A stretch of DNA of 64,000 bases from assembly GCF_030811115.1 (NCBI RefSeq), contig NZ_JAUSQK010000001.1, positions 2,108,001 through 2,172,000 of the forward strand, read 5' to 3'. This document shows, piece by piece, positions 43,952 to 60,338 of this stretch. The notes beneath the pieces were generated by a model that saw nothing but the letters and a program-made list of their open reading frames with translations, did no database searches and had not been told where the DNA came from. The first letter of the stretch is position 1. The number at the start of each line of letters is the position of its first letter. The stretch is from Olsenella profusa DSM 13989. GTDB taxonomy: Bacteria; Actinomycetota; Coriobacteriia; Coriobacteriales; Atopobiaceae. A program made the translations under genes and the position numbers.

Positions 43952-44111
43952 GCCTGCCGCTTGGCCGCCCCCTCCGTGCGCAGCCGCCGCGCCCCGTCGC
44001 TGTGCGCAGGTGCCTGCCGACGCCATTGTCAGGCGCGACGTTGTCATGCAGGCTTCAGCATTTCTTGGCAAGCATGCCGCCAGTGACGGCTGCTACCATT
44101 GTGCCGTTCGA

Positions 44112-44140
44112 TTGACACCGAACGACTGTTCGCATATGAT
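44112..44140 (+). promoter_or_regulatory. recA promoter with SOS (LexA) box in the spacer
   Basis: TTGACA (44112-44117) and TATGAT (44135-44140) are separated by 17 bases. The spacer contains CGAACGACTGTTCG at 44119-44132, which fits the Gram-positive and actinobacterial LexA box (GAAC, four bases, GTTC). Repressor binding here would block the polymerase, so recA is expected to be SOS-induced. Confidence 0.9.
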
Positions 44141-53700: not shown

Positions 53701-54348
53701 CTAGGCAATGGTCCTCATGAGTGCGACGACCTTACCCAGGATGATGGGATTCCGTACGTAGATGGGATCCATCGTGTCATTCTCCGGCTGGAGGCGGATG
53801 CGACCCTCCTCCCGGTAGAAGGTCTTGACCGTGGCGGAATCGTCTATGAGAGCCACGACGATCTCGCCATCCTGGGCATCATGCTGCTCGCGTACGGCAA
53901 TGATGTCACCGTCGAGAATCCCCTTGTTGACCATCGATGTGCCATGGACCTTCAGCAGGAAGGAGCTGCCGCTGCCGACGACACTGGCGGGGAGCGTGAG
54001 CTGATCCTCCACATTCTGCTCGGCAAGAATGGGGGTGCCTGCGGCGACGCGGCCGATAAGGGGAAGGGAGATGGTTCCCTCGCTCACATGCTCCTCCACC
54101 GACGCAAGCGCTTGTCCGCCGGGCAGGTCGTCCTCAACCACCTCAATGGTGCGCGGCTTCTTGGAGTCGCGCTTGATGAGGCCACGCTCCTGAAGGACCT
54201 TCAGGTGCATATGAACCGTCGAGGGCGAGGCCAGCCCCACGGCCGTGCCAATCTCCCTCACCGAGGGCGGATAGCCATGTTCGGTGGTGTAGGAGCAGAT
54301 GAAGTCGTAGATGGACTGCTGTCTCTTGCTGAGCCTGTCCTTGGCCAT
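53701..54348 (-). CDS. lexA: SOS repressor LexA
   Basis: A 215-residue repressor. The winged-helix DNA-binding domain has PPSVREIGTAVGLASPSTVH. The self-cleavage site is the Ala-Gly bond in GRVAAGTP near residue 100. The catalytic serine is in VHGTSMVNKG, and the lysine is in SATVKTFYRE. RecA filaments stimulate cleavage. Three SOS-like boxes lie in the divergent upstream region, so it represses itself and the LysM gene. Confidence 0.95.
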   Translation of the reverse strand: MAKDRLSKRQQSIYDFICSYTTEHGYPPSVREIGTAVGLASPSTVHMHLKVLQERGLIKRDSKKPRTIEVVEDDLPGGQALASVEEHVSEGTISLPLIGRVAAGTPILAEQNVEDQLTLPASVVGSGSSFLLKVHGTSMVNKGILDGDIIAVREQHDAQDGEIVVALIDDSATVKTFYREEGRIRLQPENDTMDPIYVRNPIILGKVVALMRTIA

Positions 54349-54390: not shown

Positions 54391-54470
54391 CAAACACATG
54401 TTCTCTCTTTGCTTGACAGTGAGTGTCGTTGTCCCTATAGTAGCACATATGTTCGCAGTACACGTGTTCT
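54391..54470. promoter_or_regulatory. Divergent lexA/LysM-gene control region with three SOS-like boxes
   Basis: Three sites follow the GAAC-N4-GTTC pattern with a degenerate left half: CAAACACATGTTCT (54391-54404), AGCACATATGTTCG (54442-54455) and AGTACACGTGTTCT (54457-54470). A near-consensus forward promoter lies between the first and second: TTGACA at 54413-54418, 17 bases, TATAGT at 54436-54441. Boxes 2 and 3 overlap the expected transcription start of the LysM gene. Box 1 lies on the lexA side. Confidence 0.75.
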
Positions 54471-54537
54471 TTTGGCAATTGCTGTCGCGTGGTCTTGGTA
54501 TACCAGTCTCGTACACACGCCGGGAGGGGAGTAAGCC

Positions 54538-54990
54538 ATGCAGTCCTACAGACGCATCCAGAACGGTGTCGCAGCATTTCCCATCGCTGGCACGGCAGCG
54601 CTCAGACCTCGGCAGCACCGTGGTCTCGTGATGCTCGAGGGCGGTGCCACGGCACAGCGCCACCTCGCCGATGTGCGTGTCAGGCGCGAGGGGCGCCTTC
54701 GGCCGCACACGCTTGTCCTTGGGGCCCTTCTCGTCTGCGTCCTTTCCGTAGGCGCACTGATCCTTTCGGGCATCACATCTGCAGCCGCCGCACAACAGGC
54801 GCTGGATCGGGCAGACACCGTAACGATAGCGGTGCGGCAGGGAGACTCCCTGTGGAGCATCGCTCATGAGCATGGCATTGCCGGAGTCGATGACGGACGT
54901 ATCGTCTCTTGGATCGAACAGCACAATGGGGTCTCTGCTGACGGGCTTGTGCCCGGCCAGAAGCTCGTCATCCCCACCTCCACAGCATGA
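54538..54990 (+). CDS. LysM-domain membrane protein, candidate SOS cell-division inhibitor
   Basis: A 150-residue protein with an N-terminal cytoplasmic stretch of about 55 residues, one helix (LVLGALLVCVLSVGALILSG) and a C-terminal LysM domain (VRQGDSLWSIAHEHG, then VPGQKLVIP). GGGAGGGGAG precedes the ATG. The position next to divergent lexA and before nrdR matches mycobacterial chiZ, corynebacterial divS and Bacillus yneA, small envelope proteins that delay division during DNA damage. The promoter carries SOS-like boxes. The role as a division inhibitor is inferred from locus and topology; sequence similarity to those proteins outside LysM is low. Confidence 0.75.
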   Translation: MQSYRRIQNGVAAFPIAGTAALRPRQHRGLVMLEGGATAQRHLADVRVRREGRLRPHTLVLGALLVCVLSVGALILSGITSAAAAQQALDRADTVTIAVRQGDSLWSIAHEHGIAGVDDGRIVSWIEQHNGVSADGLVPGQKLVIPTSTA

Positions 54991-55095: not shown

Positions 55096-55548
55096 ATGCG
55101 CTGTCCCAAGTGTGGTTGCGAGGAGTCGAAGGTCGTCGACTCTCGCCCGTCCGAGAACAATGACGCCATTCGCCGCCGCCGAGAGTGCATCAGGTGTGGT
55201 ACGCGCTTTACCACCTACGAGCGTCGCGAAGAGATGCCCATCATGGTCGTCAAGAAGGATGGCCACAAGGAGGCCTTCGATCGCACAAAGATCATGCGGG
55301 GGCTCATGGTGGCCACCATCAAGCGCAACGTTCCGCTGGAGCGGCTCGATGGTCTCATTGACAGCATCCTCAGTGAGCTCAGGGACTCCGGCACGGTCGA
55401 GGTGAACTCCCAGGAGCTGGGCAAGATGGTCCTCCAGCGCCTCGTTGATATAGACAAAGTTGCCTATGTGCGCTTTGCCTCGGTTTATCGCGACTTCAAG
55501 GACATTGACGAGTTCGAAGAAGAGCTACGGAGCCTCATCAATGGGTAA
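55096..55548 (+). CDS. nrdR: Transcriptional repressor NrdR
   Basis: A 150-residue repressor of ribonucleotide reductase genes. The zinc ribbon is CPKCGCEESKVVDSR followed by CIRCGTRFTTYER. The ATP-cone covers the rest (VVKKDGHKEAFDRTKIMRGL). It senses dATP/ATP balance. The ATG at 55096 is chosen for the strong GAGGAGGAG before it. The dut gene starts eight bases before its end, so two dNTP-pool genes are coupled. Confidence 0.95.
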   Translation: MRCPKCGCEESKVVDSRPSENNDAIRRRRECIRCGTRFTTYERREEMPIMVVKKDGHKEAFDRTKIMRGLMVATIKRNVPLERLDGLIDSILSELRDSGTVEVNSQELGKMVLQRLVDIDKVAYVRFASVYRDFKDIDEFEEELRSLING

Positions 55549-55987
55549 TGACAGGATCTCTCTACCTATCAAGCGCCTCGACCCGTCGATCGAGCTGCCC
55601 TCCTATGCCCATGCGGGCGATGCCGGCCTCGACCTGAGGGCAAACGAGGACGTTGTCCTCAGGCCCCTCGAGCGGCGCCTCGTCCCCACGGGGCTTGCCA
55701 TAGCCGTCCCCGAGGGATATGCCGGCTTTGTGCAGCCGAGAAGTGGCCTCGCCTTCAAGGAGGGCCTTTCTATGGCCAACACCCCCGGCCTCATCGACGC
55801 GCACTACCGCGGGGAGCTCAAGGTGTGCGTCGTCAATCTCGACGCCACGCACGACATCACTATCACCAGGGGCGAGCGCATCGCCCAGCTGGTCATCCAG
55901 AAGGTGCCCGAGGTGTGTCTCAGGGAGGTCGGCGAGTTGGATGAGACGGACAGGGGCACGGGCGGCTTTGGTTCCAGTGGCGTCTAG
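55541..55987 (+). CDS. dut: dUTP diphosphatase
   Basis: A 148-residue trimeric dUTPase that prevents uracil incorporation and supplies dUMP. Motifs in order: AGDAGLDLRA (I), QPRSGLAFKEG (II), NTPGLIDAHYRGEL (III), RGERIAQLVI (IV), and GTGGFGSSG (V). The start overlaps nrdR. A strong terminator follows. Confidence 0.95.
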   Translation: MGNDRISLPIKRLDPSIELPSYAHAGDAGLDLRANEDVVLRPLERRLVPTGLAIAVPEGYAGFVQPRSGLAFKEGLSMANTPGLIDAHYRGELKVCVVNLDATHDITITRGERIAQLVIQKVPEVCLREVGELDETDRGTGGFGSSGV

Positions 55988-58715: not shown

Positions 58716-60338
58716 CTACCGTCTCGGTGTGTGCTCGGTCGCCAACGAGCTTCGGCAGAGGCGCCAGACATGGTCCTGTATGCTGTCCTCGGCGCGCATG
58801 TCCATGATGACGAGCAGGTCATCCAGCGCCTGCAGGCGCGTGTCGCCATTGGGTACGATCTCCGTCCCGGCACGGTACACCGTCACGATCATCGAGCCCC
58901 TCGGCCAGTCGATGTCCCTGAGGCACCGGCCCTCGAGCAGGCTGCCGGCACCCACGGTGTAGTCGTGCAGCACCTTCTCCTTCTTATGGCGCACGCGTGG
59001 GGTCTTCGCGGTGACGTCCAACAGATTGCCCAGGAGCCTCTCGTAGAACGGATCCGTCCTGGTGATGTTGGCGACGACATACGCCACGATCGATACGATG
59101 GAAGCTGCGAGCAGCGAGTCCATGCTACCCGTGAGCTCGAACGCTAGGACGACGCCCGTGACCGGGGCGCGCACCACCGACGAGAACAGTCCTGCTATGC
59201 CCAACACCATGAAGTTGACGATGTACATCGCATTCATGGAACATGTGTTCGTAAGAACGTTACCATAGACCGCTCCCGCGAGCATGCCCATGACGCATAG
59301 GGGGAAGAGCGTGCCGCCCGGGGCGCCTGACGCAAAGCACATTGAGGTGAGGGCGTACTTCCCCACCAAGAGGAGCACGAGCGTCAGGAAGGGCACCATG
59401 GTGGGGTATTTGAGCAGTTCGACAATGGCATCCCCGCCGTCAAGGAGCAGGGGCGCCGCGAACGCGGCGACGAGCGTGAGCGCGAAGGGCAAGGCGAGCC
59501 TTCCCCCATAGGGAGCCCTGGCAAGCACCGTGCCATAGAGGCCCTCGTTGAGCAGGAACATCCCCCTGTTGTGAAGGGCGCCCAGAAGCCCCATGACCAG
59601 GCCCATGAGCAGGACGAGCACATAGTAGACGTGCGGGAGGTCCTGGACGAACGCGAGCCGGAGCACGGGCCGCACCCCCAGCACCTGGGACACCAGGAAG
59701 TCGGCGGACACGGCCGATGCCATGGCGGAGATGATGAGCGAGGGCGTGAACTCCTTGTGTATCTCCTCGATGGCGAAGAGCGTGCCGGTGAGCGGCGCAT
59801 TGAAGGCGGCACTCATGCCTGCGGCAGCCCCACAGGTCACGAGCAGGCGCTCCTCCCCCCTTCCGCGGCGCAGCAGCCTTGAGATGGCCTTGCCACCCAT
59901 GCCGCCCAGCTGAATGGAGGGACCCTCGCGTCCCAGGGAGAGTCCGGAGAGCGCCAGGAGCGTCCCCTCCGTGAACTTTGCCGCCAGCACACGATGCCAG
60001 GGCATGTCAAGCTTGCCCATGACCTCGGCATCCACCTGGGGGATGCCGGATCCCTGCGTATAGGGCTCCCAGCTGACAAGCTTGGCCACAACCAGACAGC
60101 ACGCGGCCATGAGGGCGATGAGCCCTGCGAGGGCCATGGGGTGTGCCTGTGCGAACGGGATGATGAACCTGAGCGTGCGCTCGGCCAGCGTCAGGCACAG
60201 ACGGTAGAGCGTGACGATGCCGCCGGCGGCAAGCCCCACGAGGACGCCCTCCCATACCATGTCGAGCTGGAAGCGACGCGAATTCCGCCTGCTTACCTGG
60301 GCGCGAGCGTCCGTCTTTATCGCCTGCGTGGTGCCCAT
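58716..60338 (-). CDS. ClC-type chloride channel/antiporter
   Basis: A 540-residue ClC protein. The selectivity residues are in GSGIPQVDAE near residue 95 and GREGPSIQLGG near residue 135, which includes the gating glutamate. GSASGAP-like ASGAPGGTLFPLCV lies near 335. About residues 1-440 are membrane, and a TrkA_C-type cytoplasmic domain follows (LEGRCLRDIDWPRGSMIVTV). It carries chloride, possibly against protons, and may help in acid tolerance. GGGGGAT precedes the ATG. Confidence 0.88.
   Translation of the reverse strand: MGTTQAIKTDARAQVSRRNSRRFQLDMVWEGVLVGLAAGGIVTLYRLCLTLAERTLRFIIPFAQAHPMALAGLIALMAACCLVVAKLVSWEPYTQGSGIPQVDAEVMGKLDMPWHRVLAAKFTEGTLLALSGLSLGREGPSIQLGGMGGKAISRLLRRGRGEERLLVTCGAAAGMSAAFNAPLTGTLFAIEEIHKEFTPSLIISAMASAVSADFLVSQVLGVRPVLRLAFVQDLPHVYYVLVLLMGLVMGLLGALHNRGMFLLNEGLYGTVLARAPYGGRLALPFALTLVAAFAAPLLLDGGDAIVELLKYPTMVPFLTLVLLLVGKYALTSMCFASGAPGGTLFPLCVMGMLAGAVYGNVLTNTCSMNAMYIVNFMVLGIAGLFSSVVRAPVTGVVLAFELTGSMDSLLAASIVSIVAYVVANITRTDPFYERLLGNLLDVTAKTPRVRHKKEKVLHDYTVGAGSLLEGRCLRDIDWPRGSMIVTVYRAGTEIVPNGDTRLQALDDLLVIMDMRAEDSIQDHVWRLCRSSLATEHTPRR

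Follow-up and report, generated by a model that had tools for sequence, protein, structure and literature searches.

A putative ChiZ-type division inhibitor divergent from lexA in Olsenella profusa, with predicted LexA control and a candidate PafBC-type second promoter

Introduction

ChiZ (Rv2719c) of Mycobacterium tuberculosis has a disordered cytoplasmic tail of 64 residues that, together with its transmembrane (TM) helix, suffices for filamentation; a linker and the LysM domain follow, and the protein binds FtsQ and FtsI (PMC7355643). According to a review, the LysM domain seems dispensable (PMC3989709). PafBC control of the rv2719c operon in M. tuberculosis is assigned in a supplementary legend (PMC8151990), and on the strength of that legend dual control of chiZ is already known in this organism. 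The published mycobacterial PafBC motif is TGTC(GG/AG/AC)-N10-TANNNT (PMC8151990), and PafBC is activated in mycobacteria by single-stranded DNA (PMC11804915). YneA of Bacillus subtilis binds TM7 of FtsW through its own TM helix and needs LysM (PMC13396833). DivS of Corynebacterium glutamicum and SosA of Staphylococcus aureus are SOS-controlled division inhibitors, single-pass proteins encoded beside lexA; both lack LysM (PMC6851548).

We analysed 64,000 nucleotides of Olsenella profusa DSM 13989 (hereafter the window), in which a LysM membrane protein is encoded divergently from lexA. Like ChiZ, this protein has lexA divergent and nrdR downstream, a tail, a TM helix and a LysM domain, and a predicted LexA box together with a PafBC-type motif; unlike ChiZ, it belongs to a class without Pup ligase, and the Coriobacteriales tail carries GxxAL...VIEGG, which is unseen in mycobacterial-type tails. 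With YneA it shares the position divergent from lexA, one TM helix, an external LysM and the best NCBIfam model, but it differs in its long cytoplasmic tail, its second promoter and a score below the equivalog cut-off. It resembles DivS and SosA in being single-pass, in lying beside lexA and in its predicted SOS control, but Pfam finds in it the LysM domain that those two lack. A preliminary description had assigned it the topology and position of ChiZ, DivS and YneA; synteny and the TM-LysM arrangement bear this out for the ChiZ type; DivS has no LysM (PMC6851548). What is new here is a ChiZ-type member with what appears, from sequence, to be well-conserved double damage control.

Results

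The genome is a single 2.6-Mb contig, and comparisons were made with a class sample of 99 Coriobacteriia genomes. Among named LexA proteins, that of Olsenella porci (Atopobiaceae, Coriobacteriia) is closest to the one in the window, at 76%. The LysM protein was matched by tblastn in 63 of the 99 genomes. Of 77 loci, 71 had such a match divergent from lexA and 75 had nrdR; wherever a locus had the protein and enough flank, lexA was divergent, and nearly all had nrdR downstream. At four further loci without a tblastn match a TM-LysM protein was present when the locus was read by frame, and essentially all of the examined Coriobacteriia loci that have the protein show the lexA/LysM/nrdR layout. 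Mycobacterium-like genomes (f38, assigned by gene content) show the same box, PafBC motif, chiZ-type gene and nrdR order. Among 63 loci of Lachnospiraceae type, at least 32 likewise have a TM-LysM-like ORF divergent from lexA. In distant actinobacteria a LysM regular expression missed ChiZ-type proteins and was excluded from the counts.

Table 1. Features of the lexA-LysM locus, the recA promoter and the PafB-PafC pair. Positions are those of the window unless another contig is named.
Feature	Position	Strand	Remarks
recA promoter TTGACA-17-TATGAT	44112..44140	+	predicted LexA box GAACGACTGTTC at 44120-44131, inside spacer
lexA, SOS repressor	53701..54348	-	215 aa; TIGR00498 229.7 bits, cut-off 110.95
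LexA box A (predicted), AAACACATGTTC	54392..54403	.	upstream of -35, 44 bp from lexA start
Sigma-A type promoter TTGACA-17-TATAGT	54413..54441	+	11/12 match
LexA box (predicted), GCACATATGTTC	54443..54454	.	immediately 3' of -10
LexA box (predicted), GTACACGTGTTC	54458..54469	.	
Putative PafBC-type second promoter CTGTC-N12-TATACC	54482..54504	+	-26 element TGTC 54483-54486; -10 TATACC 54499-54504
Shine-Dalgarno GGGAGGGGAG of LysM protein gene	54522..54531	+	called strong; start codon ATG
Putative ChiZ-type single-pass LysM membrane protein gene	54538..54990	+	150 aa; Pfam LysM, NCBIfam, AF2 model
N-tail motif 1, GTAALRP (aa 18-24)	54589..54609	+	G18, A21 invariant in 23 Coriobacteriales proteins
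N-tail motif 2, GLVMLEGG (aa 29-36)	54622..54645	+	G35 invariant in 23 Coriobacteriales proteins
Transmembrane helix (about aa 58-80)	54709..54777	+	hydropathy 2.72; AF2 helix 56-91
LysM domain (aa 99-146)	54832..54975	+	Pfam; Foldseek top matches are LysM structures
nrdR, next downstream of LysM gene	55096..55548	+	TIGR00244 185 bits
dut, after nrdR	55541..55987		
PafB gene (WYL)	L154 2909-3877 = G000:C1 725408-726376		top PDB match PafB, E 4e-10
PafC gene (WYL)	L154 3906-4802 = G000:C1 726405-727301		top PDB match PafBC/PafC, E 2e-12

The three LexA-like boxes and the near-consensus promoter of the preliminary description are present in the region shared by lexA and the LysM gene (Table 1); the predicted boxes, each of 12 bp, flank the promoter. 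The pattern RNACAYRTGTTC, written from these boxes, has only 10 matches across the 2.6 Mb of the genome, and 3 fall within these 78 bp. The 7 other places found by this narrow whole-genome scan are mostly intragenic, and the scan therefore did not map the SOS regulon. The equivalent of box A in relatives is CAAACANNTGTTC; between -35 and -10 relatives have an additional box, of which the window shows a degenerate version. Among 74 distinct Coriobacteriia lexA-upstream regions, 73 contained LexA-type sites, 196 in all versus 2.3 expected. An independent check comes from the matching box in the genome's own recA promoter; the recA box lies at a near-constant distance in 30/30 Coriobacteriia loci. 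Boxes, synteny, the topology of the protein and the recA box make SOS control, as first proposed, and ChiZ-type identity well-supported predictions.

Two other palindromes came to light. GAACATGTGTTC, near-perfect and LexA-like, lies at 59239-59250 inside a chloride-channel-like ORF and is probably due to chance, and the perfect palindrome GAACATATGTTC (L002 1501-1512; G000:C1:735905) falls among the first codons of an ORF that lies downstream from a YidC-like gene, where it could be a coding coincidence.

The LysM membrane protein itself is as had been described, a product of 150 residues with a Pfam LysM domain (33.7 bits, cut-off 20.9) and one TM helix, except that the start first given for it, 54391, falls within the control region. 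Pfam found nothing in it besides LysM, and a wall hydrolase was rejected as its identity because there is no catalytic domain; an NCBIfam search gave weak similarity to several wall enzymes. The top NCBIfam model is YneA (NF010723, 56.5 bits, E 2e-15), which all 23 aligned relatives (23/23) also match; the score is just short of the curated equivalog cut-off of 60 bits, and the protein is therefore not filed as YneA. The AF2 model (mean pLDDT 83) places a LysM fold at residues 93-147 after a long helix, which contains the only hydrophobic helix of the protein, starting at residue 58. The architecture is thus a cytoplasmic Arg-rich tail of 57 residues, one TM helix and an external C-terminal LysM, the N-in orientation being suggested by the composition of the tail (11 Arg, net +8). 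The earlier claim that the protein is unlike the known ones, with a longer N-terminus, is therefore wrong: the tail of ChiZ has 64 residues (PMC7355643).

In Coriobacteriales the tail has a conserved GxxAL followed about 10 residues later by VIEGG, and 3 of the 6 residues invariant across 23 Coriobacteriales proteins are in it. AF2 gives pLDDT values mostly of 55-78 in the tail of the window protein and a weak hairpin, with a strand pair (20-24/30-34) in the motifs at modest confidence. The hairpin is not claimed: the AF2 model of one protein of the family designated f2 has none (pLDDT 43-50 over the N-terminal 60 residues). This family, by elimination probably Eggerthellaceae, has lexA-divergent proteins that keep the tail motif and the TM helix but lack LysM, their C-terminus being the TM helix. 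They resemble DivS and SosA in having no LysM, but differ in ending at the helix. With a tail profile trained on families f1 and f3, 10/10 f2 tails outscored at least 999 of 1000 of their own shuffles; the profile found nothing significant in the PDB, and in its own genome only the window protein itself.

These data bear on which part of the protein would stop division. We favour a ChiZ-like reading, in which tail and TM helix dock and LysM assists. Alternatively, LysM could be the working part, as in YneA, and block the glycan made by FtsW, the tail only aiding membrane insertion. This is a serious possibility, though not one we hold probable. YneA of B. subtilis needs peptidoglycan binding by LysM, its TM helix alone being non-inhibitory (PMC13396833), and most Coriobacteriia loci examined keep LysM; against this, the ChiZ tail and TM helix are enough for filamentation (PMC7355643), half of the invariant residues are in the cytoplasmic tail, and the f2 relatives retain tail motif and TM helix without LysM. 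Those relatives amount to natural deletion mutants, which makes the division-stopping part of ChiZ-type inhibitors directly testable.

The earlier account of the control region, right as to LexA boxes and promoter, missed a PafBC-type second promoter conserved across the class. TGTC-N12-TA was present in 70/74 distinct Coriobacteriia loci (shuffles, 3.5 +/- 1.9), in most of them 48-64 nt before the start codon and downstream of the LexA promoter. Among the same 74 loci, other TGTC-to-TA spacings were found 0-6 times, except N14 (33, because TA repeats within TATA) and N18 (13), and the opposite strand gave 1-7. As the motif was noticed in the same data before it was counted, its apparent significance is somewhat inflated; the spacing control, the strand control and the separate recA motif are free of this weakness. 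The strict mycobacterial form occurs in 32/74 loci. Families outside Coriobacteriales have ATGTCAGACC...TANNNT, that is TGTCAG-N10-TANNNT, which is the mycobacterial PafBC consensus, and their recA has TGTCAGTG-N8-TANNNT. The Coriobacteriales form, TTGTCCGG-N9-TATAAC, departs from that consensus, and the window element (TGTCGC-N10-TATACC) fits the relaxed but not the strict pattern. A genome-wide search for YTGTC-N12-TATAMC returned one other place only, inside a gene.

The genome contains adjacent WYL genes that match the solved PafB and PafC (Table 1), and at least two WYL matches are present in most Coriobacteriia genomes. Descriptions of PafBC link it to the Pup-proteasome locus. None of the 99 Coriobacteriia genomes gave a Pup ligase match (C. 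glutamicum, the control, was positive); the tandem pair (G000:C1:725408-727301) sits in a genome and a class without that enzyme. Among the papers available for search, none named PafBC together with Coriobacteria. Tandem pair and motif are both absent in 13/13 f2 genomes and in G002, G060 and G098. As exceptions, G097 has the motif and no WYL match, G069 the motif and one WYL match, and G092 the pair without the motif, while f6 genomes have pairs without an exact-spacing copy; this co-occurrence reflects few lineages, not independent counts.

It is unlikely, in our judgement, that LexA alone controls the gene, with TGTC-N12-TATAMC serving as an ordinary promoter or as the site of another regulator. 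Such a view could draw on the non-consensus Coriobacteriales and window elements (TGTCCG or TGTCGC, with -10 TATAAC or TATACC), on the genome's own recA, where no good copy of the PafBC motif was found, and on the f6 genomes with their tandem WYL genes. The spacing and strand, however, match the PafBC motif, the consensus form stands at the same place outside Coriobacteriales and in recA there, and pair and motif are missing together from the genomes named above. An ordinary promoter fits poorly as well: the gap from TTGTCC to TATAAC is 11 bp, too short for a -35/-10 pair, and these hexamers were therefore rejected as a sigma-A pair. It is more improbable still that this is a cell-wall maintenance protein, LexA-responsive only through the intergenic region shared with lexA: LysM is widespread in wall enzymes, several of them weakly similar, but the protein has no catalytic domain, its gene has a near-consensus promoter of its own that bears LexA boxes, as well as a second damage-type promoter, and the nearest characterised genes in position (chiZ, yneA, divS and sosA) are all division inhibitors (PMC6851548).

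Upstream of recA, at 44078-44099, CGCCAGTG...TACCAT aligns by eye with the G088 recA motif (TGTCAGTG...TAAGCT) and looks like a decayed copy.

Discussion

We consider it likely that the LysM gene encodes a ChiZ-type damage-inducible division inhibitor that docks on the divisome, expressed from a sigma-A promoter shut by LexA and from a second promoter switched by PafBC. LysM is a common domain, and descent from ChiZ therefore rests on gene order and architecture, not on sequence outside LysM. Like mycobacterial PafBC-dependent (RecA-NDp) promoters, the second promoter has TGTC, 12 nt and TA, and the genome has a PafB-PafC pair; it differs in its Coriobacteriales variant and in the lack of Pup ligase in the class sample. 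The gene appears to be fitted with two distinct damage switches, an arrangement shared with M. tuberculosis.

We infer the following course of events. LexA on the boxes would keep the sigma-A promoter of the LysM gene shut, and likewise lexA. After DNA damage, single-stranded DNA would give rise to RecA filaments, LexA would cleave itself and the main promoter would open; in parallel, PafBC would activate the second promoter, which lies about 55 nt upstream of the start codon. The protein would insert so that the Arg-rich tail faces the cytoplasm and LysM the exterior, and tail and helix would dock on the late divisome, at FtsQ/FtsI as for ChiZ or at TM7 of FtsW as for YneA. LysM would hold septal peptidoglycan, and septal wall synthesis would stop. 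The LysM protein would in this way probably halt cell division after DNA damage.

On this reading, Coriobacteriia, a major class of actinobacteria in the gut, would share a checkpoint already described in Mycobacterium and Firmicutes, and the LexA/PafBC double wiring of a lexA-adjacent inhibitor is, by comparison, common to Mycobacterium and Coriobacteriia; in the latter PafBC occurs without any Pup ligase. A broader scheme is offered only tentatively, and we think it rather doubtful as a whole: Coriobacteriia would use a Pup-free LexA and PafBC switch, the working part in Coriobacteriales would be GxxAL...VIEGG with the TM helix, and an accessory LysM would have disappeared from f2 along with PafBC and the PafBC promoter, so that a tail-anchored inhibitor remained.

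Several features of individual relatives may be recorded here. In f2, the proteins of L222, L224, L226, L228, L229, L232, L234, L235 and L236 combine the tail motif GTSAL with a TM helix at the C-terminus and lack LysM. The lexA-divergent ORFs of L231, of L243, L244 and L246, and of L245 are very short (23-37 aa), scarcely more than one hydrophobic helix, and are possibly bare-TM microproteins or decayed genes. Proteins from outside Coriobacteriales (L102-L187) often end in a short -AxR type C-terminus, also seen in the LysM-less L241, which may be a protease tag of the CtpA type. In distant actinobacterial lexA-divergent proteins (L255, L275, L280, L304 and L306), tail stretches of the LRVIPGG/LRLVPTG kind resemble motif 2 by eye.
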